Source of the DNA: a virus
Reading direction: 5' to 3' (one strand)
Length of the DNA: 45,244 nt
Virus record (IMG/VR): IMGVR_UViG_3300016457_000999
Location: 1 to 45,244 of that record
Both the position numbers and the translations under genes were made by a program. Below the pieces are notes generated by a model. It had not been told where the DNA came from and made no database searches. It saw only the letters and a list, made by a program, of their open reading frames with translations. Shown piece by piece: positions 98 through 45,244 of this stretch; position 1 is the stretch's first letter; every line of letters begins with the position of its first letter.

Positions 98-140
98 GGA
101 TAAAGTTATACGGGTAAGTCCTTGAAATGGCTTTGGTAAT

Positions 141-208
141 TCGGGTAACGTGAGAGTGCCATCCTCACACGGTGGAAGCCGAGGGTTCAAATCCCTCACC
201 GCCCACCA
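141..208 (+). other. tRNA-Val(CAC) 3' fragment, candidate attP core
   Basis: The sequence reads as the 3' two thirds of a tRNA. The anticodon stem CCATC/GGTGG encloses the loop CTCACAC, giving anticodon CAC (Val). A five-base variable region, T-stem GAGGG/CCCTC with loop TTCAAAT, acceptor strand ACCGCCC, discriminator A and an encoded CCA ending at 208 follow. The complementary 5' acceptor GGGCGGT is not present upstream and no normal D-arm can be built, so this is not a complete tRNA gene. Many integrative phages carry the 3' end of a tRNA gene as attP so that insertion restores the host tRNA. The integrase lies 6.4 kb away rather than next door, which is somewhat unusual. Confidence 0.65.
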
Positions 209-216
209 TACCAGCA

Positions 217-255
217 AAAACAGGGACTTGCCTCACTTGGGGGAGTCCCTGTTTT
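217..255 (+). terminator. Rho-independent terminator after tRNA fragment
   Basis: A perfect 12-bp stem (AAAACAGGGACT with AGTCCCTGTTTT) ends in a short T-run. It sits nine bases after the tRNA CCA, where the terminator of a tRNA gene would be, so it probably came with the host tRNA locus. Confidence 0.75.
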
Positions 256-278
256 CTTGCGAAACAGGGCGATTTTTA

Positions 279-297
279 GGGTTAAACTCGGGTCAAA
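279..297 (+). repeat. GGGTTAAA/GGGTCAAA pair, right of tRNA fragment
   Basis: GGGTTAAA at 279-286 and GGGTCAAA at 290-297 reproduce the 11-base spacing of the pair at 79-97. The two pairs are exactly 200 bases apart and flank the tRNA fragment and its terminator. Confidence 0.5.
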
Positions 298-362
298 ATC
301 CGGGACAAGAGAATAAGTCGTTTCTCCCTCGCCTCAAAACTTGTCGATAGGAGGATCGGCTT

Positions 363-1163
363 ATGCAGGTTATCTATGAGCCCAAGGGGAGGGCGCTTGA
401 GTATAGTCCCTTAGCTGTAAATCTTTATACGGGATGTACGCACGGGTGCCTTTATTGCTACGGACCCGCAACACTCCGAAAAAAACCAGGCGAATTTCAT
501 TCCAACGTCCAGCCAAGAAAAGACATCCTCAAAAAACTCGAAAGTGATTGTAAGAAAATGGAGGGGGATCCCCGGCAGATCCTTCTATGCTTTTTGTGTG
601 ATCCCTATCAACCAAGAGGGCTTTTTGACTATCGGAATCCCAGCCCTGACAGTCCTGTGGTTGAAGATATCACGCGGGAAGCGCTTCTTATCCTCGAAAA
701 ATATCATATGAATGTGACGGTCCTGACCAAAGGGGGAATGCGGGCAGGTCGGGACTTCGACATCCTGGCACGAAACGGGTGGTGGTTTGGGACGTCATTA
801 TCGTTCGTAAATGATGATGAGTTGCGTTTATGGGAGCCTGGACCCTCCGCAAATTGCTTTATGAGATGTGCGGCTATTAGGCGGGCGAAACTTATGGGGA
901 TTAAGACGTGGGTATCAGTTGAGCCGGTACTTCATTTCTCCGAAGCGCTGGATTGTATTTCGCTGTTATCAGGGAAACCCCCAGAATTGCCAGATATCGT
1001 TGATCACTGGAAAATAGGAAAGATTAACCATATGCCGAAGATCGAGAAACAGATTAATTGGGGACTATTCCTGCAGGAAGCCGAAGAGATTCTGAAGGGT
1101 AAATCGTATTACATCAAAAAGGATTTGGAAGATTGGAGATGGAAGTCAACTACCCACAGATGA
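363..1163 (+). CDS. Radical SAM protein, SPL-like
   Basis: A 266-residue protein with the radical SAM cluster motif C25-x3-C29-x2-C32 in the context TGCTHGCLYCY, near the N-terminus as in the spore photoproduct lyase-like branch. The three cysteines bind a [4Fe-4S] cluster that cleaves S-adenosylmethionine. Phages carry related proteins but substrates are mostly unknown; DNA base repair or modification is a reasonable guess. The start follows AGGAGG at about 350. The stop codon overlaps the next start (ATGA at 1160-1163), so the two are translationally coupled and the gene leads the rightward replication cluster. Family placement is secure; function is open. Confidence 0.8.
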   Translation: MQVIYEPKGRALEYSPLAVNLYTGCTHGCLYCYGPATLRKKPGEFHSNVQPRKDILKKLESDCKKMEGDPRQILLCFLCDPYQPRGLFDYRNPSPDSPVVEDITREALLILEKYHMNVTVLTKGGMRAGRDFDILARNGWWFGTSLSFVNDDELRLWEPGPSANCFMRCAAIRRAKLMGIKTWVSVEPVLHFSEALDCISLLSGKPPELPDIVDHWKIGKINHMPKIEKQINWGLFLQEAEEILKGKSYYIKKDLEDWRWKSTTHR

Positions 1164-1276
1164 ATCAGTGGGCTTCCTTGGCATATGATCGTGAAAATCG
1201 GAATGGTTATTTTTGGGAATGTGTTTGTGATTGTGGGGAATATGTAAATGGGGTTTTTTTTGGGGGAAAAAAATGA
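1160..1276 (+). CDS. 38-aa W-x-C-x-C-D-C-G mini-protein
   Basis: A short reading frame bounded by two ATGA overlaps: its ATG uses the last bases of the radical SAM gene and its TGA overlaps the ATG of the replisome organiser at 1273. Such tight coupling on both sides argues that it is real. The product carries YFWECVCDCGEY, a Cys-rich motif seen in small zinc-binding phage proteins. No enzymatic domain fits in 38 residues; a zinc-binding role is inferred. Confidence 0.55.
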   Translation: MNQWASLAYDRENRNGYFWECVCDCGEYVNGVFFGGKK

Positions 1277-2103
1277 AATGGTACAAACATCTTGCTGGTT
1301 CCCTAAATAATAGCATTATTGCTGAAGCCATTGAACGATTCGGGGGGGATGGATACCTTGTTTTCTTTGGTATTTTAGAGTTGATTTCTGATGAATTTGA
1401 CATATATCACCCCGGAGAAAAGACTTTAAGAATGGCAAAAGTTAAGCAAAATCTGCAACTTTCTCGGCAGAAAATTGTCAAAATTCTGTCGTTTTTTGAT
1501 CAAAAAGCAAAAATAAATCAGAAAAAAAATGTCAGCTTTTTTGCCACAGTTGAGGGAAATAGTATTCATATAAAATGTAATAGATTGGCGGAGTTATGCG
1601 ATAATCACACACAAAAACTATTGAAAGATACTTCGAAGTTACTTCAAAGTGAAAACGAAGTTACTTCGTCCCATAGAAGTAAGAAGAAAGAAGTAGAAGA
1701 AGAAGAAAGACTAACTACAAATACCCCCCCTATATCCCCCCACGGAAACAATCTTCCGCCTTACCAAAAAATTATTGAACACCTGAACGAAAAAACCGGG
1801 AAAAAATTTCGGGTTAATTCTAAAGAAACAAAAGCTCTAATTAAAGCCCGATGGAACAGTGGGTTCACATTAGAGGATTTTAAAAAAGTCATAGACAATA
1901 AAACTGCCAAATGGCTGACGGACCCAAAAATGATTGATTATCTCCGGCCTCAAACTCTATTCGGAACAAAATTTGAATCCTACTTACAGGAAAGAGGACA
2001 CCCCATGCAAGGCAGGGTATCGGATAAAAGCATTAAAAATATTGAGGCATTAAATATATGGGAAAGGGAGGAAATAGAAAATGAAAAACAGGACCAAGTT
2101 TAA
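1273..2103 (+). CDS. Phage replisome organiser (Phg_2220_C-type)
   Basis: A protein of 276 residues from the ATG at 1273, chosen because it overlaps the upstream stop in ATGA and follows a GGGGG-rich RBS; a start 42 bases further upstream is possible. The N-terminal ~100 residues (MKWYKHLAGSLNN..., FGGDGYLVFFGILELI) resemble the winged-helix domain of phage replisome organisers. A charged, low-complexity Glu/Lys linker follows. The C-terminal ~80 residues match the conserved phage C-terminal domain PF09524, with NEKTGKKFRVNSKETKALI, ARWNSGFTLEDF, and TDPKMIDYLRPQTLFGTKFE. Proteins of this type bind the phage origin and recruit the helicase loader. The next gene overlaps by 23 bases. Confidence 0.8.
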   Translation: MKWYKHLAGSLNNSIIAEAIERFGGDGYLVFFGILELISDEFDIYHPGEKTLRMAKVKQNLQLSRQKIVKILSFFDQKAKINQKKNVSFFATVEGNSIHIKCNRLAELCDNHTQKLLKDTSKLLQSENEVTSSHRSKKKEVEEEERLTTNTPPISPHGNNLPPYQKIIEHLNEKTGKKFRVNSKETKALIKARWNSGFTLEDFKKVIDNKTAKWLTDPKMIDYLRPQTLFGTKFESYLQERGHPMQGRVSDKSIKNIEALNIWEREEIENEKQDQV

Positions 2104-2638
2104 GGAATTCATGGCCGGATTGGGGGAATTATATGACAAGGAAATAACCCCTATACTCAGTAAAATTTATTGGAAAAGTTTATTACCTTTCTCTGATTCA
2201 GAATGTGAAAAAGTATTTAACCAGATAATCTCTACATCTAAGTTTTGGCCTAAACCGTCAGAGTTTCTTGAGATATTAAAGGGTTCGGAAGAAGATCAAG
2301 CAACTTTAGCTTGGCTGGAAGTGGATAGGGCTGTTAGACGTATCGGGCCCCTGGCCTCAGTGCAGTTTGACGACCCGGTTATTCATAGCACCATAGAGGC
2401 ACTTGGAGGGTGGGAAGTCCTGGGAAATGTGTCAGAATATGATTGGAAATGGACAAGGAAAGATTTTATTGCGTTATACCCCGTTATGGCAAAAAAAGAT
2501 AAGCACCCCAAAAGGCTGATAGGTCAGACCGAGAGGGAAAATTTAGGCCGGAATTACAAAGACTTTATTCCTGATACCGTGATGGTCGGGGGCGCTAAAA
2601 GGATGAAATTATTAAAAAAAGTGAGCAGTATAAGATAG
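2081..2638 (+). CDS. Probable replication partner/helicase loader
   Basis: A 185-residue protein that overlaps the replisome organiser by 23 bases. It contains an aromatic segment (FWPKPSEFLEIL) and a central region resembling small phage proteins annotated near replication initiators (DUF6475-like; tentative). No Walker A is present, so it is not a DnaC-type ATPase. By position it most likely links the initiator to the replicative helicase, as lambda P or SPP1 G39P do. Function rests mainly on gene order. Confidence 0.5.
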   Translation: MKNRTKFKEFMAGLGELYDKEITPILSKIYWKSLLPFSDSECEKVFNQIISTSKFWPKPSEFLEILKGSEEDQATLAWLEVDRAVRRIGPLASVQFDDPVIHSTIEALGGWEVLGNVSEYDWKWTRKDFIALYPVMAKKDKHPKRLIGQTERENLGRNYKDFIPDTVMVGGAKRMKLLKKVSSIR

Positions 2639-2652
2639 GAGGTGGGCGCTTA

Positions 2653-3231
2653 ATGAAAAGTAAAATTGCATGGATTGATACGGAAACAGGCGGGGTAGAT
2701 TCTAATAAACACGCTTTACTCCAAACAGCTATTGAAGTTTTTATAGATCAGGAGAAAGCCGAATCCGAAATTTTTTACTCTGCCCCGTTTGAAGGAGATA
2801 TTGTTGAAGATGAGGCCTTGGAGGTAAATGGTTTTACCCGGGAGGAGGTCGATCGTTTCCCTGCGCCAATTATTACTCATATAAAAATTGTAAAGATGCT
2901 TGAAAAATATGTGGATAGGTATAACCCGCTCGATAAATTCATATTCGCGGGTTATGGGGCCAGGTTCGACATGGATTTTCTTAGGGCCTTTTTCGGAAAA
3001 AGCGGAGATGATTATTTTGGGAGTTATTTTTATTCTCTTCCAATGGATGTCATATCATTTGTGGCGGAGGGGGTGCTTTTGGGCGTGGTAAAGCCCATGA
3101 AGAGCTTTAGGTTGGCGAAGGTCTGCGAACAGATGGGGGTTGGACTTGGGGAAAAGGCCCATGATGCGATGGAGGATATCCGAGCAACAAGGGAACTTTA
3201 TGGCAAACTGAAGGGGTTACATGAGGGTTAA
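2653..3231 (+). CDS. DnaQ-like 3'-5' exonuclease (DEDDh)
   Basis: A 192-residue exonuclease of the DnaQ/RNase T superfamily. The metal ligands are visible: D9 and E11 in WIDTETGG, D106 in YGARFDMDFL, and H170/D175 in the EKAHDAMEDIRA motif that defines the DEDDh subgroup. Likely roles are proofreading for a host or phage polymerase or trimming of 3' ends. It starts after GGAGGTG at good spacing. Its stop codon lies inside the left arm of a degenerate attC-like element, as is common for genes carried in integron cassettes. Confidence 0.85.
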   Translation: MKSKIAWIDTETGGVDSNKHALLQTAIEVFIDQEKAESEIFYSAPFEGDIVEDEALEVNGFTREEVDRFPAPIITHIKIVKMLEKYVDRYNPLDKFIFAGYGARFDMDFLRAFFGKSGDDYFGSYFYSLPMDVISFVAEGVLLGVVKPMKSFRLAKVCEQMGVGLGEKAHDAMEDIRATRELYGKLKGLHEG

Positions 3232-3276
3232 GCTGAGCGGATGCAAAAAACCACACCGCTGATTAGAACGTTGGAG
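3225..3276 (+). repeat. Degenerate attC-like site A
   Basis: AGCGG-A-TG (3236-3243) pairs with CACCGCT (3254-3260) leaving one extrahelical A, around an A-rich loop. The right end carries AACGTTGGAG with an imperfect GTTRRRY box at 3270. The left RYYYAAC box is not recognisable. The layout is that of the three better sites at 3526, 4167 and 5026, so this may be a decayed attC or the landing site of the array. Confidence 0.4.
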
Positions 3277-3281
3277 AGACT

Positions 3282-3467
3282 ATGGACCCACGGAACTGTT
3301 TAGAGTGTAATACTGCAATTTGTCATTATGACTCTAATGGATATGAAAGTGTAGAATGCCTCCACCCTGACCGACCAGGAGACCCATGTTTCGTAGATGA
3401 TGGGCAAGGTATTCCTATCTGGTGCCCCAAAGGCAAAATAAATAATCTCGAAGCTGAAAACATGTAG
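3282..3467 (+). CDS. Cys-rich 61-aa cassette protein
   Basis: A 61-residue protein with six cysteines (NCLECNTAIC, ECLHPD, DPCFVDD, WCPKG), probably a small zinc-binding or disulfide-stabilised fold. It starts 6 bases past the right box of attC-like site A, and the next site begins 58 bases after its stop. That is the one-gene-per-cassette layout of integrons. GGAGAG precedes the ATG. No function can be assigned. Confidence 0.6.
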   Translation: MDPRNCLECNTAICHYDSNGYESVECLHPDRPGDPCFVDDGQGIPIWCPKGKINNLEAENM

Positions 3468-3525
3468 TTACAGAAGCGAATTAAGGCACTGGAACAGGGG
3501 TGATCCCGCTTTTAGCAAAAACGCA

Positions 3526-3584
3526 ATATAACCATACACTGGAGCGAACGCAAAAAGCTGCGCCGCTCAGCTTAGACGTTATAA
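3526..3584 (+). repeat. attC-like recombination site B
   Basis: The left box ATATAAC (3526-3532) and right box GTTATAA (3578-3584) are near complementary. The inner arms CTG-G-AGCGAACGC and GCGCCGCTCAG fold with an extrahelical G and an extra A on the left arm, around an AAAAAGCT apex. Unpaired bases on one arm are the structural signature that integron integrases read in folded single-stranded attC. Length (59 bp) is in the normal attC range. Confidence 0.75.
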
Positions 3585-3597
3585 TGCTTGAGGTCAT

Positions 3598-4218
3598 ATG
3601 AAAAAGTATCAAATAATTTATGCAGATCCTCCTTGGCGACAATCAAAAGGCGGCAAAAAAAATGCAAGGCCATTGTCTTCAGGCGAAAAATTAGACTATC
3701 AAGTCATATCTCTTGAAGAGATAAAATTTCATCTTTCCAGCGTAAAGACTGAGACAAACAGCATATTATTTTTATGGACTATAGACAAATACTTGTTTGA
3801 AGCAGAGCAGCTTGCTAAAAGCCTTGGCTATAAACTACATGCAAGAATGATATGGAACAAAGTAACTGGTATTCCAGCGGCTTTTACTGTTAGATATGGG
3901 CATGAATATCTATTATATATGTATTCAGGGAAATTGCTACCGATCGCAAAAGCTGAAAGAGGCAAAATTCATACTGTTTTTACAGAACAGGTTAAAAAAC
4001 ATAGCCAAAAACCTTTAATAGCACGACAAATAATTAATCGATTATATCCCAATGCCACTAAACTTGAAATGTATGCAAGAATAAAAAAAGAGATTATACA
4101 AGATCCTGCTTTAGACGGATGGGATTTTTGGGGCAATGAAGTTGATAGCGATATTGACATTATGCAATATAACAAGACGCTGGACTCTGACGGCAAAAAG
4201 CCGCCGCAGGTCAGCTAA
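3598..4218 (+). CDS. MT-A70 family N6-adenine methyltransferase
   Basis: A 206-residue methyltransferase of the MT-A70 family. The catalytic DPPW motif is at residues 10-13 (IIYADPPWR), close to the N-terminus as is usual for the bacterial and phage branch. WTIDKYLFEA, ARMIWNKVTG and KLEMYARI match later conserved segments. It should transfer methyl from AdoMet to adenine N6 in DNA. No restriction partner is adjacent, so it may act as an orphan protective enzyme. The start follows TGAGG 13 bases past attC-like site B. Its TAA lies inside attC-like site D, as expected when gene and attC travel together. It is more AT-rich than the flanking genes, consistent with separate acquisition. Confidence 0.85.
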   Translation: MKKYQIIYADPPWRQSKGGKKNARPLSSGEKLDYQVISLEEIKFHLSSVKTETNSILFLWTIDKYLFEAEQLAKSLGYKLHARMIWNKVTGIPAAFTVRYGHEYLLYMYSGKLLPIAKAERGKIHTVFTEQVKKHSQKPLIARQIINRLYPNATKLEMYARIKKEIIQDPALDGWDFWGNEVDSDIDIMQYNKTLDSDGKKPPQVS

Positions 4219-4229
4219 AATCGTGTAGG
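4167..4229 (+). repeat. attC-like recombination site D
   Basis: The left box ATATAAC (4167-4173) is identical to that of site B. The arm at 4179-4194 (GCTG-G-AC-T-CTG-A-CGGC) pairs in all 13 positions with GCCGCAGGTCAGC at 4203-4215, leaving exactly three extrahelical bases G, T and A on one side. The right box GTGTAGG (4223-4229) departs from GTTRRRY, so activity may be reduced. The methyltransferase stop codon is at 4216-4218, immediately after the stem. Confidence 0.8.
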
Positions 4230-4238
4230 AGGATAATA

Positions 4239-4343
4239 ATGAAAGATAACAAGCTAATGCAAATGAAATGCGAAATATCAATTATCTGTCCTACTTGTAA
4301 GGGGCGGGGTTTTTTAAAAAAAATAAGGATCGGTAAGGTGTGA
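4239..4343 (+). CDS. 34-aa zinc-knuckle peptide upstream of RuvC
   Basis: A short gene preceded by TAGGAGGA at ideal spacing. The product contains CPTCKGRG, a half zinc-finger like those in DnaJ. Its stop TGA is followed one base later by the ATG of the RuvC-like gene, so translation of the two is probably coupled. Lying between attC-like sites D and C, it is part of the same putative cassette as the resolvase. Confidence 0.55.
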   Translation: MKDNKLMQMKCEISIICPTCKGRGFLKKIRIGKV

Positions 4344-4344
4344 C

Positions 4345-4929
4345 ATGATTCTCTGCCTTGATATTGCATTTGAGCACATTGGCTATTCAATGTTCCACGA
4401 TAAACATCCGGTTGCCTTAGGCATGATCCATGTGCCGAAATCCGGCAAAAAAAATGTTAGGGTATCAGATGAACGGGCGGACCGGTGCGCGGCCATGGTG
4501 GGGCACCTCATAAACCTGATCTTTAAGCATAAGGCACAGGGAGTTATCGGGGAGCTTCCTTCTGGATCCCAAAATGCGAGGGCGGCGAACCTGTTGGGCT
4601 GGGCAGGGGGCCTGGTTGTAACGACATGCAGGATATTGGAGCTGCCGGCAGAGTGGGTCAGCCAGAACGATGTTAAAATAGCGGTGGCCGGGAAAAAGAA
4701 TGCCACAAAACCGGAGATTATGGATAAGGTCGCGGAATTTTACGGTTGGAATAGAAAAGAGAAGGTGATAAAGATCAAGAAAGGGAAGCGGGCGGGAAAG
4801 ACCACTAAACAGGTGACCTATGATGCATTGGGCGGGAAATATCCGGCTGGAAAATTCGAGCATGTTGCAGATTCGATAGGGGTTTACTGGGCATCGAGGG
4901 ATAGGAATTTGGTGAGGATGTATGGATGA
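4345..4929 (+). CDS. RuvC-like Holliday junction resolvase
   Basis: A 194-residue protein of the RNase H-fold resolvase family. The first acidic ligand is D6 in ILCLDIAFEHIGYS. The second lies in GVIGELPSGSQNARAA. VKIAVAGKKNATKPEIMDKV corresponds to the family's lysine-rich DNA-binding segment, and EHVADSIGVYWA supplies the C-terminal acidic pair. Expected to cut four-way junctions during replication, recombination or packaging. It is preceded by the zinc-knuckle peptide and followed by attC-like site C. A resolvase as cassette cargo would be notable. Confidence 0.8.
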   Translation: MILCLDIAFEHIGYSMFHDKHPVALGMIHVPKSGKKNVRVSDERADRCAAMVGHLINLIFKHKAQGVIGELPSGSQNARAANLLGWAGGLVVTTCRILELPAEWVSQNDVKIAVAGKKNATKPEIMDKVAEFYGWNRKEKVIKIKKGKRAGKTTKQVTYDALGGKYPAGKFEHVADSIGVYWASRDRNLVRMYG

Positions 4930-5194
4930 GAAAAAAAGGGATGCGACTAATTCGGTCTTATGGTGGAAGCCTGGGACTAATAATGTTTTTATCCGACCAC
5001 TTTTGGTAGGCAAATCAATGGGTTGGGCTAACCAGCGCATAGAGCGGACGCCAAAAGCTGCGCCGCTCATGCTAAATCGTTATAATTATTTCTTAGAATT
5101 TTTTTGCCGCATATTTGTAGCCCATGCCAGCCATTTCCGAATATGGGACGGTATCCGGAATAGCCTCGTCGGGGAACTCCGGATCTGGAATTAA
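4922..5194 (+). CDS. Possible 90-aa ORF reading through attC C (doubtful)
   Basis: The frame overlaps the end of the RuvC gene by 8 bases and could be translationally coupled to it. The first ~38 residues look plausible, then the frame runs through attC-like site C and into antisense of the leftward gene ending at 5093. Read-through of attC into a C-terminal tail is common in cassette ORFs. The late part is probably accidental. Confidence 0.3.
   Translation: MDEKKRDATNSVLWWKPGTNNVFIRPLLVGKSMGWANQRIERTPKAAPLMLNRYNYFLEFFCRIFVAHASHFRIWDGIRNSLVGELRIWN
5026..5085 (+). repeat. attC-like recombination site C
   Basis: The clearest of the set. The left box GGCTAAC (5026-5032) faces the right box GTTATAA (5079-5085). 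The arm GCAT-A-GAGCGG-A-CGC (5037-5051) pairs perfectly over 13 positions with GCGCCGCTCATGC (5060-5072), leaving two extrahelical A on one side and a CAAAAGCT apex like that of site B. The site closes the + strand cluster; the leftward gene block begins 8 bases later. Confidence 0.8.
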
Positions 5195-6628: not shown

Positions 6629-7516
6629 CTAATCCCACCCCATCGCGGCCGCCACCCTTTTCCTGAGCATCTGAGGGGTGGGATGCAGGTATCTTTCTCG
6701 TATGGTTTCCACCTTGTCCCCCAGGAGGAAAGCCAGATCTTCGATGCGCATGTTGCCCTCATAAAACAGATATGTCGCGGTGTAATGTCGGAAGGTATGC
6801 GGGCCTCGACCATCCTTTCCGTTTTTGAGGCCTAGGTCTTTGAGCATTTGGGTGATCGTGGCCTTAATCCTGGAGACATCGGGGAAAAGGCGGTTATGGT
6901 GATTGAATAGGGTATCCGAAAGCCTGCCTGAAATCTGTTTAAGTAACTCCCGTGTTTTTTCTGAGAAAAAGACAGGCCTTGGCTCGGTTTTCCCCTGGAT
7001 AAAAACATGTTTTTCTTTCAAGTGGATGTCCTCCGGCTGAATGTCTGAGATCTCCCCTACCCTGGCACCGGTCTCGATCAGGAGACGAACGATTACCTTG
7101 TATTTGAGGCTATCACCATTCACATTGGCGAACCGGTATTCCAGACATTTTTCGATTTCATCTTCTGTAAACCACCGGTCCAGGTGTTTCTTTTTATTCT
7201 CCTGCCGGGCCTTATTAGATATTTTGTAGGTGAAATCTACAGGGTGACCAGCCCATTTAAGAAAAATCTTGGTGCAGGTGAGATATTGTTGGATGGATTT
7301 TTCCGATAATTTTTGTTGCTCAAGATAATGGGAAAATGCCTTAAATTCTTCGGATAATACCAGCAGGGGGTTTTCTGTGGTAATTGGAACACTTTGGGTT
7401 CTGTTTATTTCGATAAATGTTTTGCAGTGATTTAAAGCATGCCTGTAAAGCTCCCGTGTCGCCTTTGCCAAGCCCTTTACCTCGGGCGATTCCAGGTACT
7501 TCTGGATTGTGTTCAT
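6629..7516 (-). CDS. int: Tyrosine recombinase/phage integrase
   Basis: A 295-residue integrase from the ATG at 7516, which has AAAGGAG at proper spacing; a longer frame from 7576 lacks one. The N-terminal SAM-like core-binding domain covers ~1-130. The catalytic domain shows the first Arg in LLIETGARVGEISDI, the HxxR box in PHTFRHYTATYLF, and the nucleophile Tyr in LLGDKVETIRERYLHP. It lacks the extra segment of integron integrases, so it is a phage-type enzyme and not IntI. It should integrate the element, plausibly at the tRNA-Val fragment near 150-208. Confidence 0.9.
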   Translation of the reverse strand: MNTIQKYLESPEVKGLAKATRELYRHALNHCKTFIEINRTQSVPITTENPLLVLSEEFKAFSHYLEQQKLSEKSIQQYLTCTKIFLKWAGHPVDFTYKISNKARQENKKKHLDRWFTEDEIEKCLEYRFANVNGDSLKYKVIVRLLIETGARVGEISDIQPEDIHLKEKHVFIQGKTEPRPVFFSEKTRELLKQISGRLSDTLFNHHNRLFPDVSRIKATITQMLKDLGLKNGKDGRGPHTFRHYTATYLFYEGNMRIEDLAFLLGDKVETIRERYLHPTPQMLRKRVAAAMGWD

Positions 7517-7517
7517 G

Positions 7518-7739
7518 CTACGCTCCTTTCTCAATAAAATATGCCTTCCCACTACGACTTTTATAGCCTTTTGCATTCAATTGACCTTGTAGCTTTTTCC
7601 AAAGAGAATTAAACCCGTAGGGGACATAAGCTATCCACTGCAGGCCCGATTCTGTTAAAGCCATCTCTTCTTCTCTCTTTAAGGGTGGTTCTTCAAGACA
7701 CTGGTAGCGTAAGGATACGTCTTCCAGTTCCCAGACCAC
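7518..7739 (-). CDS. Small protein upstream of integrase
   Basis: 73 residues from a GTG start, with the integrase RBS lying in its 3' end. Adjacent small genes upstream of phage integrases are often excisionases, but no helix-turn-helix or Xis motif can be recognised. The segment LQWIAYVPYGFNSLWKKLQGQL could form a short DNA-binding helix. Function unknown. Confidence 0.5.
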   Translation of the reverse strand: MVWELEDVSLRYQCLEEPPLKREEEMALTESGLQWIAYVPYGFNSLWKKLQGQLNAKGYKSRSGKAYFIEKGA

Positions 7740-18564: not shown

Positions 18565-19003
18565 AGGTAAATCCTCCCGATTTTTTCAATCTCCGTGCGC
18601 AAGACAAAAGCAATGCAACCTCGCTTTCTCTGCTACTTTCAAATGGTGGGACAGCCGCGTTTCGGTATTCGGTTCCCATAGCATACCGAACCCGTCTATT
18701 TGTGACCTCATACAGGCCCCAGCCATCCGGAATAGATTTTAATATCCCCGGCCCTGTCAGATAAAACCGCCATGCGCCCAGCGCTGGGTATCCCGGATAA
18801 CGCGCCTTTTTTCGTTTCTCTGCGTAAAAATCGGATAATGAGGTTTTGCATTCCACCAGAATTGCCCGATTATTTACCCATCCAATAGCATCTGGAATTT
18901 CGCATGATCTCGTATAGGCGCTCAACTCTGAAATAATAACGCTGCAATGGCAATAATTTTTTAACCATAAGATCGCGCGGGATACCAATTCATCGTGTGT
19001 CAT
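18512..19003 (-). CDS. PD-(D/E)XK nuclease
   Basis: 163 residues from the ATG at 19003, which follows AAGGAG; a longer frame to 19156 overlaps the AAA+ gene in a wasteful way. The core shows EIPDAIGWVNNRAILVECKT: PD followed 12 residues later by E-C-K, the metal-binding signature of the PD-(D/E)XK fold. The family includes Holliday junction resolvases, VRR-NUC and restriction-like nucleases. The substrate is unknown. It overlaps the AAA+ ATPase gene by 14 bases, so both may act together. Confidence 0.65.
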   Translation of the reverse strand: MTHDELVSRAILWLKNYCHCSVIISELSAYTRSCEIPDAIGWVNNRAILVECKTSLSDFYAEKRKKARYPGYPALGAWRFYLTGPGILKSIPDGWGLYEVTNRRVRYAMGTEYRNAAVPPFESSRESEVALLLSCARRLKKSGGFTYEGRNQKSQKKNPKING

Positions 19004-21485
19004 TTTCGATCTCCTTAAGTGGCTCTTTCTTTCGCACTTTCCGGCTGGATTCGGCAATGACGGTACCGCTTTCACCTTCCCGTTTCCCGGCCCATATACA
19101 GACGCCTTCGGCCTTCCTGCGGATATCTTCCAGTTCATTGGCGTGGGCCTTGCCATAAGGCAGGATGTATTGGCCGGCCTCTTCAGCGCTACATTCCATC
19201 ATGGACATGGTTTCCGCTAATTTGGCAATGTCAGCGCCGCTATACCCATCCAAAGGGTAATCATTGGGGATTTTCACGCCCTCTTTCTTGCTCCATATGT
19301 CAGCAATCCCCCGGGCTTCATCCGGCAGGGGCATATCGGCGAAAAAAATTCCATTAAACCTTCTCAGTATGGCCCCGCCCGACTCATGGATGAGGGGTTC
19401 TAAAGCATTACAGGTTCCGATCCAATATGCCCCGCACCCTCGAGAGTCTTCCAACTCAACAAGCAGATCTTTGAATAAGGCCTGCCCTACCCCATTGTCT
19501 CCTCCGGATGAAATGCCACTGGCAATCGCTTCGATTTCATCCATGAAGACCACACATTTTCCTACGGCCCGAATGGTCTTAAAGGCATCCCTCAGGCGAC
19601 CTTCGGCCACGCCTTGATATTTGTCTTTCAGTGCGGAGAACCGTAATATCAGGCACGGCCACCCCATTTCATTGGCCACAGCCTTGGCCGTATGGCTATT
19701 ATGAGTAACCGTGAAATCACCCAATAGAAATAAATGGTCTCCGTCTAATTCAAACCCGTAATATTTCCCCTCCCCTATTGGCTGAACAGTAATCCCAGTC
19801 TTCAAAACATCTTTAACTTGTTTCCTTGGTTTGGCTTTCCGTCTTGGTATGCGGACGGGGAGTTTAGAGAGGTCTCCACTTATGAATACCCTATGGTATC
19901 TAAGTCTTTTTCCGTTGGTCCTGACTATTTTTTGCGATACATATGCTGCAAAACCTAAAGATCTTGCCAAAAAGAGGATATTATTCGATAATTTTTTAAA
20001 TTTGGTGACGATTTCATATCCGCCATTATTAAGGTGGCCATCCGTGTCAATCAAGCCCGCAAGCAATTCCAACCGATTTTTACGGTCATTAATTCTGTAA
20101 ACACTTGGGATATGTTTATTGTGAAGCACCTTTAAAGCCCTCAAATGGTCCAGAAAAAGATTTTTTGGCCTCCCCCCCCTTCCGACTTGACTGACCACTC
20201 GATATCGAGTTGCACCGCGGTGATCAGTTTTATCTTTTTGCAATATGAGATTAGAATCTCGAACATATTGAGTGATTTCTTCCAATATCACCCGGTCGGT
20301 GTTATTTATGGTGAAAGCTGTTCGATCACTATCGCCGTCCCCTAACCAAGCTCCTAAAATATACGGTGGGATAAGAAGATCCTTCTTTTCCCACTCCACC
20401 CCAGTTCTCCATCCTTTCCATCGAGGAGATATCCCGGTTAAATATTTTTTAATCGGGATATTTCTAATGCGATTCCCCCCCGTTTTCTTAAGAGATAATA
20501 CATGTCGTTCATTTACAATGTATGGAGCGCCTTTTACGGGAGTGACCCTATAAAGAGGCCCAAAACCTTGGACGGTTTCTAAAACCTTTCGGGGGTTTGA
20601 ATCAGGCCCCATTAAGAGGTCTCCAACTCGAATGTTTTCTACCAGACACCTGCTCCCGTTATATTTAAGGATAAGCGTCCCTTTACCCAAACATTTTCCT
20701 GTCCCCGGAATCCCGTAAATCAAGATTCCCCTGGCTTTAGCATTCCCAATGGTTCTCATGATGTATTTTTTCATAACTTCCAAGCCGTAGAGATCCGAAA
20801 GTCTTTCATCGAAAGTTCCGAATTCAAGGATTCCCCCAGCCTTAAGCTGTGCGGCTTTCTGTTTGAGGATATTTTTAACATCGAAATTTCCATTTATAAC
20901 AAGAGACAGGGCCAGGGCGTTCTCCGCCCCCTCCCATGTCAGGCCCCGCATGGCATTGACAATGGTGTCGGCTTCTTTGGATTTAGGCGCCGGTATCTGG
21001 TTATCCTCCGCCATCTTATCAACAATCTTCATGAGCGCCTTTTCATCCGGATATGAATAATCGTACATCGTAATATCATTGGCCAGTTCAGGCGGAATCT
21101 TATTCTCCGCCGATAGGAAGCAAATGGTCTTTGCGTTTAATTTTAGGTTTTCTTTCAGGTTCAGGGCCGCGCGGCTTATGGTGATCTTCTCAAAGTATTT
21201 ATGGAAATCTTTCATGAAGATCATAGAGTTTTCAGGCAAAGTTGATACCGTTTCAAGGGCCGCCCCGGGATCCGAAACAATCTTCTTTTTATCTGTGGTG
21301 AAGGGCTGCCAGGCCCAACTATCCGCACTCCCATTTTGAATGAGGCCCTGGAATCCAGCAACGATATCCCAGGAAAAGAATTGAACCTCATTCCCAAACT
21401 TGGTGCGGTTTTCCCTGATGATCCGTTCCTCTTCGGTCGTTTGGACCCAAAGGAACGGATACCGGGCGTCGTGACGGTGATGCAT
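18990..21485 (-). CDS. Ycf46-like AAA+ ATPase carrying an intein
   Basis: 831 residues as encoded. Residues 1-~220 form an N-terminal domain starting RYPFLWVQTTEEERIIRENR, like the start of Ycf46-family ATPases. The AAA+ module follows: Walker A GIPGTGK is cut after K264 by a 332-residue intein (265-596) and resumes SHTAKA. Walker B is VVFMDEIEA (~645-653); the sensor/arginine region is GAILRRFNGIFF. Spliced length would be about 499 residues. Neighbouring DUF1257, DUF2997, DUF3150-like and PD-(D/E)XK genes suggest a conserved but uncharacterised ATPase system. Activity should depend on intein removal. Confidence 0.85.
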   Translation of the reverse strand: MHHRHDARYPFLWVQTTEEERIIRENRTKFGNEVQFFSWDIVAGFQGLIQNGSADSWAWQPFTTDKKKIVSDPGAALETVSTLPENSMIFMKDFHKYFEKITISRAALNLKENLKLNAKTICFLSAENKIPPELANDITMYDYSYPDEKALMKIVDKMAEDNQIPAPKSKEADTIVNAMRGLTWEGAENALALSLVINGNFDVKNILKQKAAQLKAGGILEFGTFDERLSDLYGLEVMKKYIMRTIGNAKARGILIYGIPGTGKCLGKGTLILKYNGSRCLVENIRVGDLLMGPDSNPRKVLETVQGFGPLYRVTPVKGAPYIVNERHVLSLKKTGGNRIRNIPIKKYLTGISPRWKGWRTGVEWEKKDLLIPPYILGAWLGDGDSDRTAFTINNTDRVILEEITQYVRDSNLILQKDKTDHRGATRYRVVSQVGRGGRPKNLFLDHLRALKVLHNKHIPSVYRINDRKNRLELLAGLIDTDGHLNNGGYEIVTKFKKLSNNILFLARSLGFAAYVSQKIVRTNGKRLRYHRVFISGDLSKLPVRIPRRKAKPRKQVKDVLKTGITVQPIGEGKYYGFELDGDHLFLLGDFTVTHNSHTAKAVANEMGWPCLILRFSALKDKYQGVAEGRLRDAFKTIRAVGKCVVFMDEIEAIASGISSGGDNGVGQALFKDLLVELEDSRGCGAYWIGTCNALEPLIHESGGAILRRFNGIFFADMPLPDEARGIADIWSKKEGVKIPNDYPLDGYSGADIAKLAETMSMMECSAEEAGQYILPYGKAHANELEDIRRKAEGVCIWAGKREGESGTVIAESSRKVRKKEPLKEIENDTR
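19698..20693 (-). mobile_element. LAGLIDADG intein in Walker A
   Basis: The intein starts with C1 (CLGKGTLILKYNG) and ends FLLGDFTVTHN before extein S+1, the canonical C...HN/S junctions. Block B-like NERHVLSLKK and the C-terminal YYGFELDGDHLFLLGD are present. The central endonuclease has both LAGLIDADG helices, PPYILGAWLGDGDSD and RLELLAGLIDTDGHL, with their acidic residues intact, so homing is likely still possible. The insertion point, inside GTGK/S, is a favoured site because it is invariant in P-loop ATPases. Confidence 0.9.
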
Positions 21486-21829: not shown

Positions 21830-21898
21830 GCTTTTTGTTCCTTACAGGCACTTTTTACTTCCCATAATTTACTCATTTAAGCCTCTCAACGTTGAGAT

Positions 21899-22105
21899 CA
21901 GCCGCTCTACTTTTTAGAGTCGGCTGGATTGAGCTTGTTAGTCCTTTACTGTGCATATAGGATTGGCGTGACCCGACGCCTTCGTTTTATGCTTCCCCTC
22001 CGACGTGCTCGTGACTTGGTGTGGTCAGTCCGTCCGTCACCTTTCGGTGGGGTTTCCCCAGCGGCACCCTGAAGAAGCCTCCTATATGCACAACAAAAGA
22101 CTAAC
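21899..22105. ncRNA. Structured RNA candidate
   Basis: A 500-bp gene-free gap holds an elaborate fold. GTTAGTC (21937-21943) and GTGCATATAGGA (21951-21962) pair perfectly with TCCTATATGCAC (22080-22091) and GACTAAC (22099-22105), closing ~117 nt. Inside are GGCGT/ACGCC, CACC/GGTG with a GAAA loop on the - strand, GGGG/CCCC and GCTTC/GAAGC helices. A separate 11-bp hairpin is at 21899-21926. I do not recognise a known class. The remainder of the gap (22106-22229) shows nothing clear. Confidence 0.5.
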
Positions 22106-43102: not shown

Positions 43103-43201
43103 TCATGAAAAAACAAATCCTTTTATTGATAATGATTTTTTTATTGGGGACATCTTCTTTCTGTATACCGGGAGACCTCGGGCTATTAGATTTTGATGTT
43201 G
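43103..43201 (+). repeat. 99-bp direct repeat, copy 1
   Basis: Identical to 45146-45244 over the full 99 bases that remain before the contig ends. It covers two bases upstream of the start codon and the signal peptide region of the beta-helix gene. Confidence 0.95.
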
Positions 43202-45145: not shown

Positions 45146-45244
45146 TCATGAAAAAACAAATCCTTTTATTGATAATGATTTTTTTATTGGGGACATCTTC
45201 TTTCTGTATACCGGGAGACCTCGGGCTATTAGATTTTGATGTTG
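45146..45244 (+). repeat. 99-bp direct repeat, copy 2
   Basis: Second copy of the repeat, ending at the contig edge. Bases upstream differ from those at copy 1, so this is either a second gene with the same N-terminus or an assembly loop. Confidence 0.95.
45148..45244 (+). CDS. Second beta-helix gene, 5' part only
   Basis: A new ATG behind AAAGGAG encodes the same signal peptide and first 32 residues as the gene at 43105, cut by the end of the window. It may start a paralogue with a different C-terminal part, forming a tandem family, or reflect a repeat the assembler could not resolve. Confidence 0.6.
   Translation, partial: MKKQILLLIMIFLLGTSSFCIPGDLGLLDFDV

Follow-up and report, generated by a model that had tools for sequence, protein, structure and literature searches.

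A cluster of attC sites without an integron integrase at the end of a phage replication operon

The window, by which is meant the whole stretch of DNA that was analysed (45,244 bases, the entire IMG/VR virus record, which is a metagenomic contig), carries at the end of a phage replication operon (initiator, DUF6475 gene, exonuclease) a CALIN, that is, a cluster of attC sites without an integron integrase (IntI), made up of three cassettes. The initial annotation had proposed an integron-like array of this kind, and the three attCs in one orientation, the cassette layout and the lack of IntI at the end of the operon agree with it. It is very probable that we are dealing with a CALIN of a tailed, probably temperate phage, the cassettes of which would have been captured, or could be exchanged, by the IntI of a host acting in trans. 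The phage is assigned to this type because of its replication, integrase, terminase, head and tail genes: the replication initiator (phrog_428), the DUF6475 gene and a DnaQ-like exonuclease are followed by the attC stretch and by a block of convergent genes that includes a phage tyrosine integrase, and elsewhere in the window there are genes for a sliding clamp, ParB, terminase, a head-maturation protease, the major head protein and a tail spike. Two further features of the contig are a perfect 99-base direct repeat (43103-43201 and 45146-45244), which places a second copy of the tail-spike gene start at the contig end and is either a duplicated spike gene cut by that end or an assembly artefact, and an AAA ATPase/helicase-like gene (18990-21485, minus strand) that contains an intein, whose homing endonuclease is of the LAGLIDADG type (Hom_end_hint, Hom_end).

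A custom stem scan proved so permissive that attCs and chance stems were not separable, and it was dropped in favour of covariance models. The first (R1) comes from only 14 attCs, taken from the neighbourhood of integron integrases, both in class 1 integrons of plasmids and in the chromosomal integrons of gammaproteobacterial genomes, and was run over the entire window, on both strands, with the filters off; the second (R2) comes from 86 attCs, bacterial ones and those of three other phages (G001-G003), with the window left out. On the plus strand both models match at 3526, 4167 and 5026, the second place only weakly with R1 (Table 1), and, after these and the lone attC on the minus strand, the next-best R2 match in the window has 11.2 bits. 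As regards specificity, the R2 matches in bacterial arrays lie almost all in one orientation, as expected; sites were found in three of four published CALIN phages (TJE1, H101 and MW202573, with P12002L missed); five unrelated phages gave zero attC matches; and no match at E<=0.02 occurred in 23 of the 24 virus records related by their terminase, of which several are 43-89 kb long. The three sites are thus confirmed as real attCs, far above chance. The initial annotation, which had called for such a search, expected matches at four places in one orientation: those at 3526, 4167 and 5026 were obtained, all on the plus strand, and the one at 3225 (site 0) was missed by the full model over the window. 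At least two close attCs recognised by a covariance model make a CALIN, and here there are three within 1.6 kb, all on the plus strand and each with a gene ahead of it. A fourth match, a lone attC in the opposite orientation, had been overlooked earlier and is the strongest of R1.

Table 1. Features of the attC stretch and related features of the window, with the matches of the two covariance models given as positions, bits and, in brackets, E
Feature	Position	Strand	Content	R1 match	R2 match
Phage exonuclease gene, not a cassette	2653-3231	+	phrog_192, E 1e-23; adjoins the array upstream		
Site 0, decayed attC	3222-3276	+	L''-L' stem 3235-3260; R' GTTGGAG 3270-3276; R'' absent		
Cassette 1	3271-3578	+	61-aa Cys-containing ORF 3282-3467 and attC 1		
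attC 1	3526-3584	+	R'' ATATAAC 3526-3532; R' GTTATAA 3578-3584	3526-3584, 27.3	3526-3584, 48.5 (1e-8)
Cassette 2	3579-4223	+	MT-A70 / type II-like DNA methyltransferase 3598-4218		
attC 2	4167-4230	+	Three extrahelical bases; R' broken (GTgTAGGA)	4172-4224, 7.3 (7.7)	4167-4230, 26.6 (7e-4)
Cassette 3	4224-5079	+	34-aa CxxC ORF 4240-4344; RuvC-like Holliday junction resolvase 4345-4929		
attC 3	5026-5085	+	R'' GGCTAAC 5026-5032; R' GTTATAA 5079-5085	5026-5083, 13.1	5027-5085, 33.9 (2e-5)
Phage tyrosine integrase, not IntI	6629-7576	-	Phage_integrase E 2e-17; phrog_1		
Lone attC, opposite orientation	21884-21942	-	Between sliding-clamp and AAA ATPase genes	21887-21940, 29.8 (9e-6)	21884-21942, 36.1

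The canonical boxes of an attC are RYYYAAC (R'') and GTTRRRY (R'), and the cut falls at G^TT. In sites 1 and 3 the AAC and GTT cores are preserved, in boxes (xTAAC/GTTATAA) that are only partly canonical, the R' of site 2 is broken and site 0 is without R'', so that the boxes of canonical type described at first hold in part. The folded bottom strands are imperfect hairpins of the attC type, with arms of about 12-13 pairs, and the 5' (L'') arm alone has unpaired bases. This bears out the earlier description of 13-bp inner arms and of extrahelical bases confined to one arm; in sites 1 and 3 the two main unpaired bases of L'' stand 6 bp apart, like those of the class 1 training attCs. The stems are GC-rich and lie at gene ends, and one terminator pattern match does occur (3555-3573, on the minus strand), as would be expected if ordinary phage genes were separated here by intrinsic terminators or RNA structures; but no site has a terminator-like match on the plus strand, where no U-tract follows the hairpins, the count of terminator matches equals that of shuffles, no Rfam family matches the sites, and the one-arm unpaired bases at fixed attC positions, the R'/R'' boxes and the covariance scores are all proper to attCs. 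Such an explanation is next to impossible, and the case of mere terminators, which the initial annotation had considered as its contrary, is not what was found.

Two of the sites are damaged. The R' of attC 2 reads GTGTAGGA, with a 1-base insertion with respect to GTTAGG, the form that homologous attCs have in two other virus contigs, where the next gene follows it; through this insertion, which emerges from the alignment, the box is probably inactive and the site disabled. A 5-base deletion, taken before as the cause of the broken box, was replaced by the insertion once more relatives had been aligned. The degenerate attC claimed at 3225 stands as regards L''-L'-R', which matches sites 1 and 3 in alignment more closely than any of 2000 shuffles does, and its central or inner stem gives 6.9 bits when the search is limited to 111 bases; it does not stand as regards R'', the place of which is occupied by the 3' end of the exonuclease gene. 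Beside the lone attC, a perfect 13-base inverted repeat (TGTGCATATAGGA/TCCTATATGCACA, 21951-21963 and 22079-22091), with no match in Rfam, flanks a GC-rich stretch.

Right after the R' box, each unit opens with a ribosome-binding site and a start codon (GTTGGAGAGACTATG; GTTATAATGCTTGAGGTCATATG; TAGGAGGATAATAATG), that of cassette 3 being TAGGAGG..ATG, and the units are short, with one or two plus-strand genes each, as had been noted. The small protein of cassette 1 belongs to no known family. The methyltransferase of cassette 2, with the motif DPPW, matches MT-A70 of Pfam (E 8e-15), phrog_359 (E 3e-38) and MTase_II of PADLOC (E 5e-30), and its role is probably anti-restriction; its last 17 codons fall within attC 2, and ORFs that end inside an attC are also frequent among the cassettes of other viral arrays. 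The resolvase of cassette 3 matches phrog_159 (E 2e-17) and, weakly, the RuvC equivalog (E 0.0015); a tblastn search with it in 50,697 phage records found nothing, and a single-sequence search of viral contigs found no close relatives of the exonuclease and RuvC. Because a resolvase is typical of phage replication regions, that gene of unit 3 could be native to the phage and carry an attC without having been captured. Codon use and base composition do not separate the cassette genes from the phage genes, and the cargo, a DNA methyltransferase and a junction resolvase, is useful to a phage.

The TIGR02249 profile finds no integron integrase in the window, a record that may be incomplete, and hence no intI with an adjacent attI, in other words no complete integron; the window's recombinase scores 20-28 bits, far below the cut-off of 265, and the absence of IntI first noted holds. 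The other virus records with attCs, which may be fragments, all stay below the cut-off. It could also be thought that the attCs are the attachment sites of the phage itself, through which a host IntI would integrate it into a host integron, as XerCD does for dif phages: phage attCs could pair with the attI or attC of a host, and attC sites stand on both sides of a prophage of Vibrio anguillarum (PMC9892861). For the window phage this is very unlikely, since it encodes its own tyrosine integrase, since its attCs are part of an operon and have cargo between one site and the next, and since no integrated copy was seen.

The patchy occurrence of the arrays appears when related phages are compared, as the initial annotation had proposed; their proteins are 33-60% identical to those of the window, a distance at which the exact empty site is not alignable at base level. 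A true relative is G246 (terminase 42%, portal 46%, integrase 41% and exonuclease 34% identical), in which the gap between exonuclease and integrase, of about 550 bases, is occupied by a single nuclease-like gene and a further small ORF, with no attC array; a supposed attC remnant there (41214) was discarded, as equal scores arise elsewhere by chance. G246 has a larger array of its own, on the minus strand at 24-35 kb, with nine sites at E<0.03 and with 17 of the 19 loose matches on the array strand. This array includes an MT-A70 cassette, 34% identical to that of the window, and, two ORFs on, another with a 63-base segment in its coding end that is 90.5% identical to the 3' part of cassette 1 (3435-3497), an order that is the reverse of that in the window. 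In a second relative (G268), convergent genes and the integrase come straight after the exonuclease, and an attC array is lacking; in a third (G248) two attCs lie in the terminase-portal interval, where the window has none; and the closest long relative (G249) has no attCs, the vicinity of the clamp gene included. The units thus vary from relative to relative, the arrays being absent from the interval (G246, G268), relocated and reordered (G246) or composed of other cassettes (G248), as seen at a resolution coarser than the single base at the breakpoints. The contrary outcome, genes that never vary as units, did not occur, and the comparison supports the notion of mobile units. The pair G002 and G243, considered as further evidence of cassette variation, turned out to be the same phage and is uninformative.

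A search of viral contigs with the attC core of the window and looser forms of it gave six further attC-bearing virus records, and another, for attCs like site 2, added four contigs, in three of which the sites have covariance support. Phages G001 and G003 have almost no protein similarity to the window, and their attCs show 83-98% DNA identity to sites 1 and 3; attC 1 is 84% identical to an attC of the largely unrelated G001, and attC 2 is 84% identical to a G001 attC and 90-93% identical to those of three further virus contigs. The methyltransferase cassettes of these other arrays include the N6/N4, C5, Dam and, again, MT-A70 types, and further cassettes encode an RNA ligase, a dATP/dGTP diphosphohydrolase, a PAPS-reductase-like protein and many small Cys-rich proteins. 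Phage G002 (IMGVR_UViG_3300022682_000033, loci L017-L020) has 17 attC matches in three groups and both orientations, some of which flank the terminase gene, and its array is far larger than that of the window; the contig of G1053 (IMGVR_UViG_3300033153_004456, locus L191) begins with eight attCs (bases 140-3582), all oriented alike. The T4-like portal protein of G001 (L002 4675-7446) is split by an intein.

These distributions bear on another possibility, namely that the stretch is a fossil: part of a bacterial integron array would have entered on a single occasion, by homologous or illegitimate recombination, and only decayed thereafter, and in the phage IntI would never act on it. The phage has no IntI, illegitimate recombination was suggested as an entry route by Qi et al. 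(PMC9892861), and the damage to sites 0 and 2 would fit decay and, like the fact that neither a host nor a host IntI came to light, counts against active exchange in the window phage. However, arrays at three different places in related phages, with cassettes that differ and are partly shared, would need several independent entries; moreover, the boxes and extrahelical bases of sites 1 and 3 are retained, and several otherwise dissimilar phages carry attCs similar at the DNA level, and a fossil is for these reasons improbable.

As to the source of the sites, the exact attC core is absent from 84,980 bacterial and archaeal species genomes, which, for an exact and narrow pattern, is weak evidence; six bacterial genome matches to a looser pattern were due to chance, without the attC fold, and a terminase-based host search of 793 bacterial genomes of two phyla gave nothing, a result that is uninformative without a positive control. 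The missing core may point to an unsampled host lineage, or to a pool of cassettes resident chiefly in phages. A phage-adapted pool of this sort, in which unrelated phages would share phage-type cargo (four DNA methyltransferase families, RNA ligase, dNTP hydrolase, resolvase) and an attC family unseen in sequenced bacteria, and would exchange cassettes via integrases supplied by their hosts, is a tentative and rather unlikely proposal.

In this CALIN, which we propose to be served by the IntI of the host, the apparently promoterless cassettes are placed head to tail, each with a Shine-Dalgarno-like sequence, a start codon and a 3' attC, and could be expressed by read-through from the upstream replication operon. 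During infection or lysogeny, the host IntI would act in trans on the single-stranded, folded bottom strand of the attCs and in this way capture or exchange cassettes; for other phage attCs, Qi et al. (PMC9892861) found that IntI1 recombined five of the six tested, at a frequency equal to that of the bacterial control. Because no intI/attI platform is seen in the phage, the first entry would have been at a non-attI site such as attG, one of the non-classical sites attributed to Loot et al. 2024 as cited in PMC12901181. The insertion in the R' of site 2 would tie cassettes 2 and 3 together.

This is a genuine phage CALIN, of a kind first described in 2023, when 17 CALINs were reported in 10,705 phage genomes, several of them with DNA methyltransferases (Qi et al. 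2023; PMC9892861). The initial remark that such arrays are not common in phages is correct in degree, given those numbers, but the phenomenon had already been published. As in the published CALINs of virulent and temperate phages (Tetrasphaera phage TJE1, Pseudoalteromonas phage H101, Polaribacter phage P12002L and MW202573), attCs are clustered without IntI, and as in the published set (PMC9892861) the cassettes are small, mostly in one orientation, and include a DNA methyltransferase; unlike them, the window array stands at the end of a replication operon and includes a RuvC-like resolvase, several other phages have attCs related to its own at the DNA level, and within the phage group the array is not always present nor always in the same place. 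With bacterial sedentary chromosomal integrons and CALINs it shares the attC architecture, the cassette layout and the ORFs that run into the attC, and it differs from them in being viral, in lacking IntI and attI, and in a core unmatched in the species genomes searched. From mobile class 1 integrons, phage P1 derivatives included, which resemble it in the two extrahelical L'' bases 6 bp apart, it differs in having no intI1, attI1, resistance genes or Tn402 parts. The comparison within a phage group, the RuvC-like cassette gene and the attC families common to unrelated phages go somewhat beyond the published record as searched.

In one group of phages, integron cassettes behave as accessory modules, present in some relatives, absent from others and relocated in still others. 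If the IntI of the host does move cassettes between phages, integrons would be a route of gene exchange for viruses as well as for bacteria, and anti-restriction methyltransferases would be a main currency of it.
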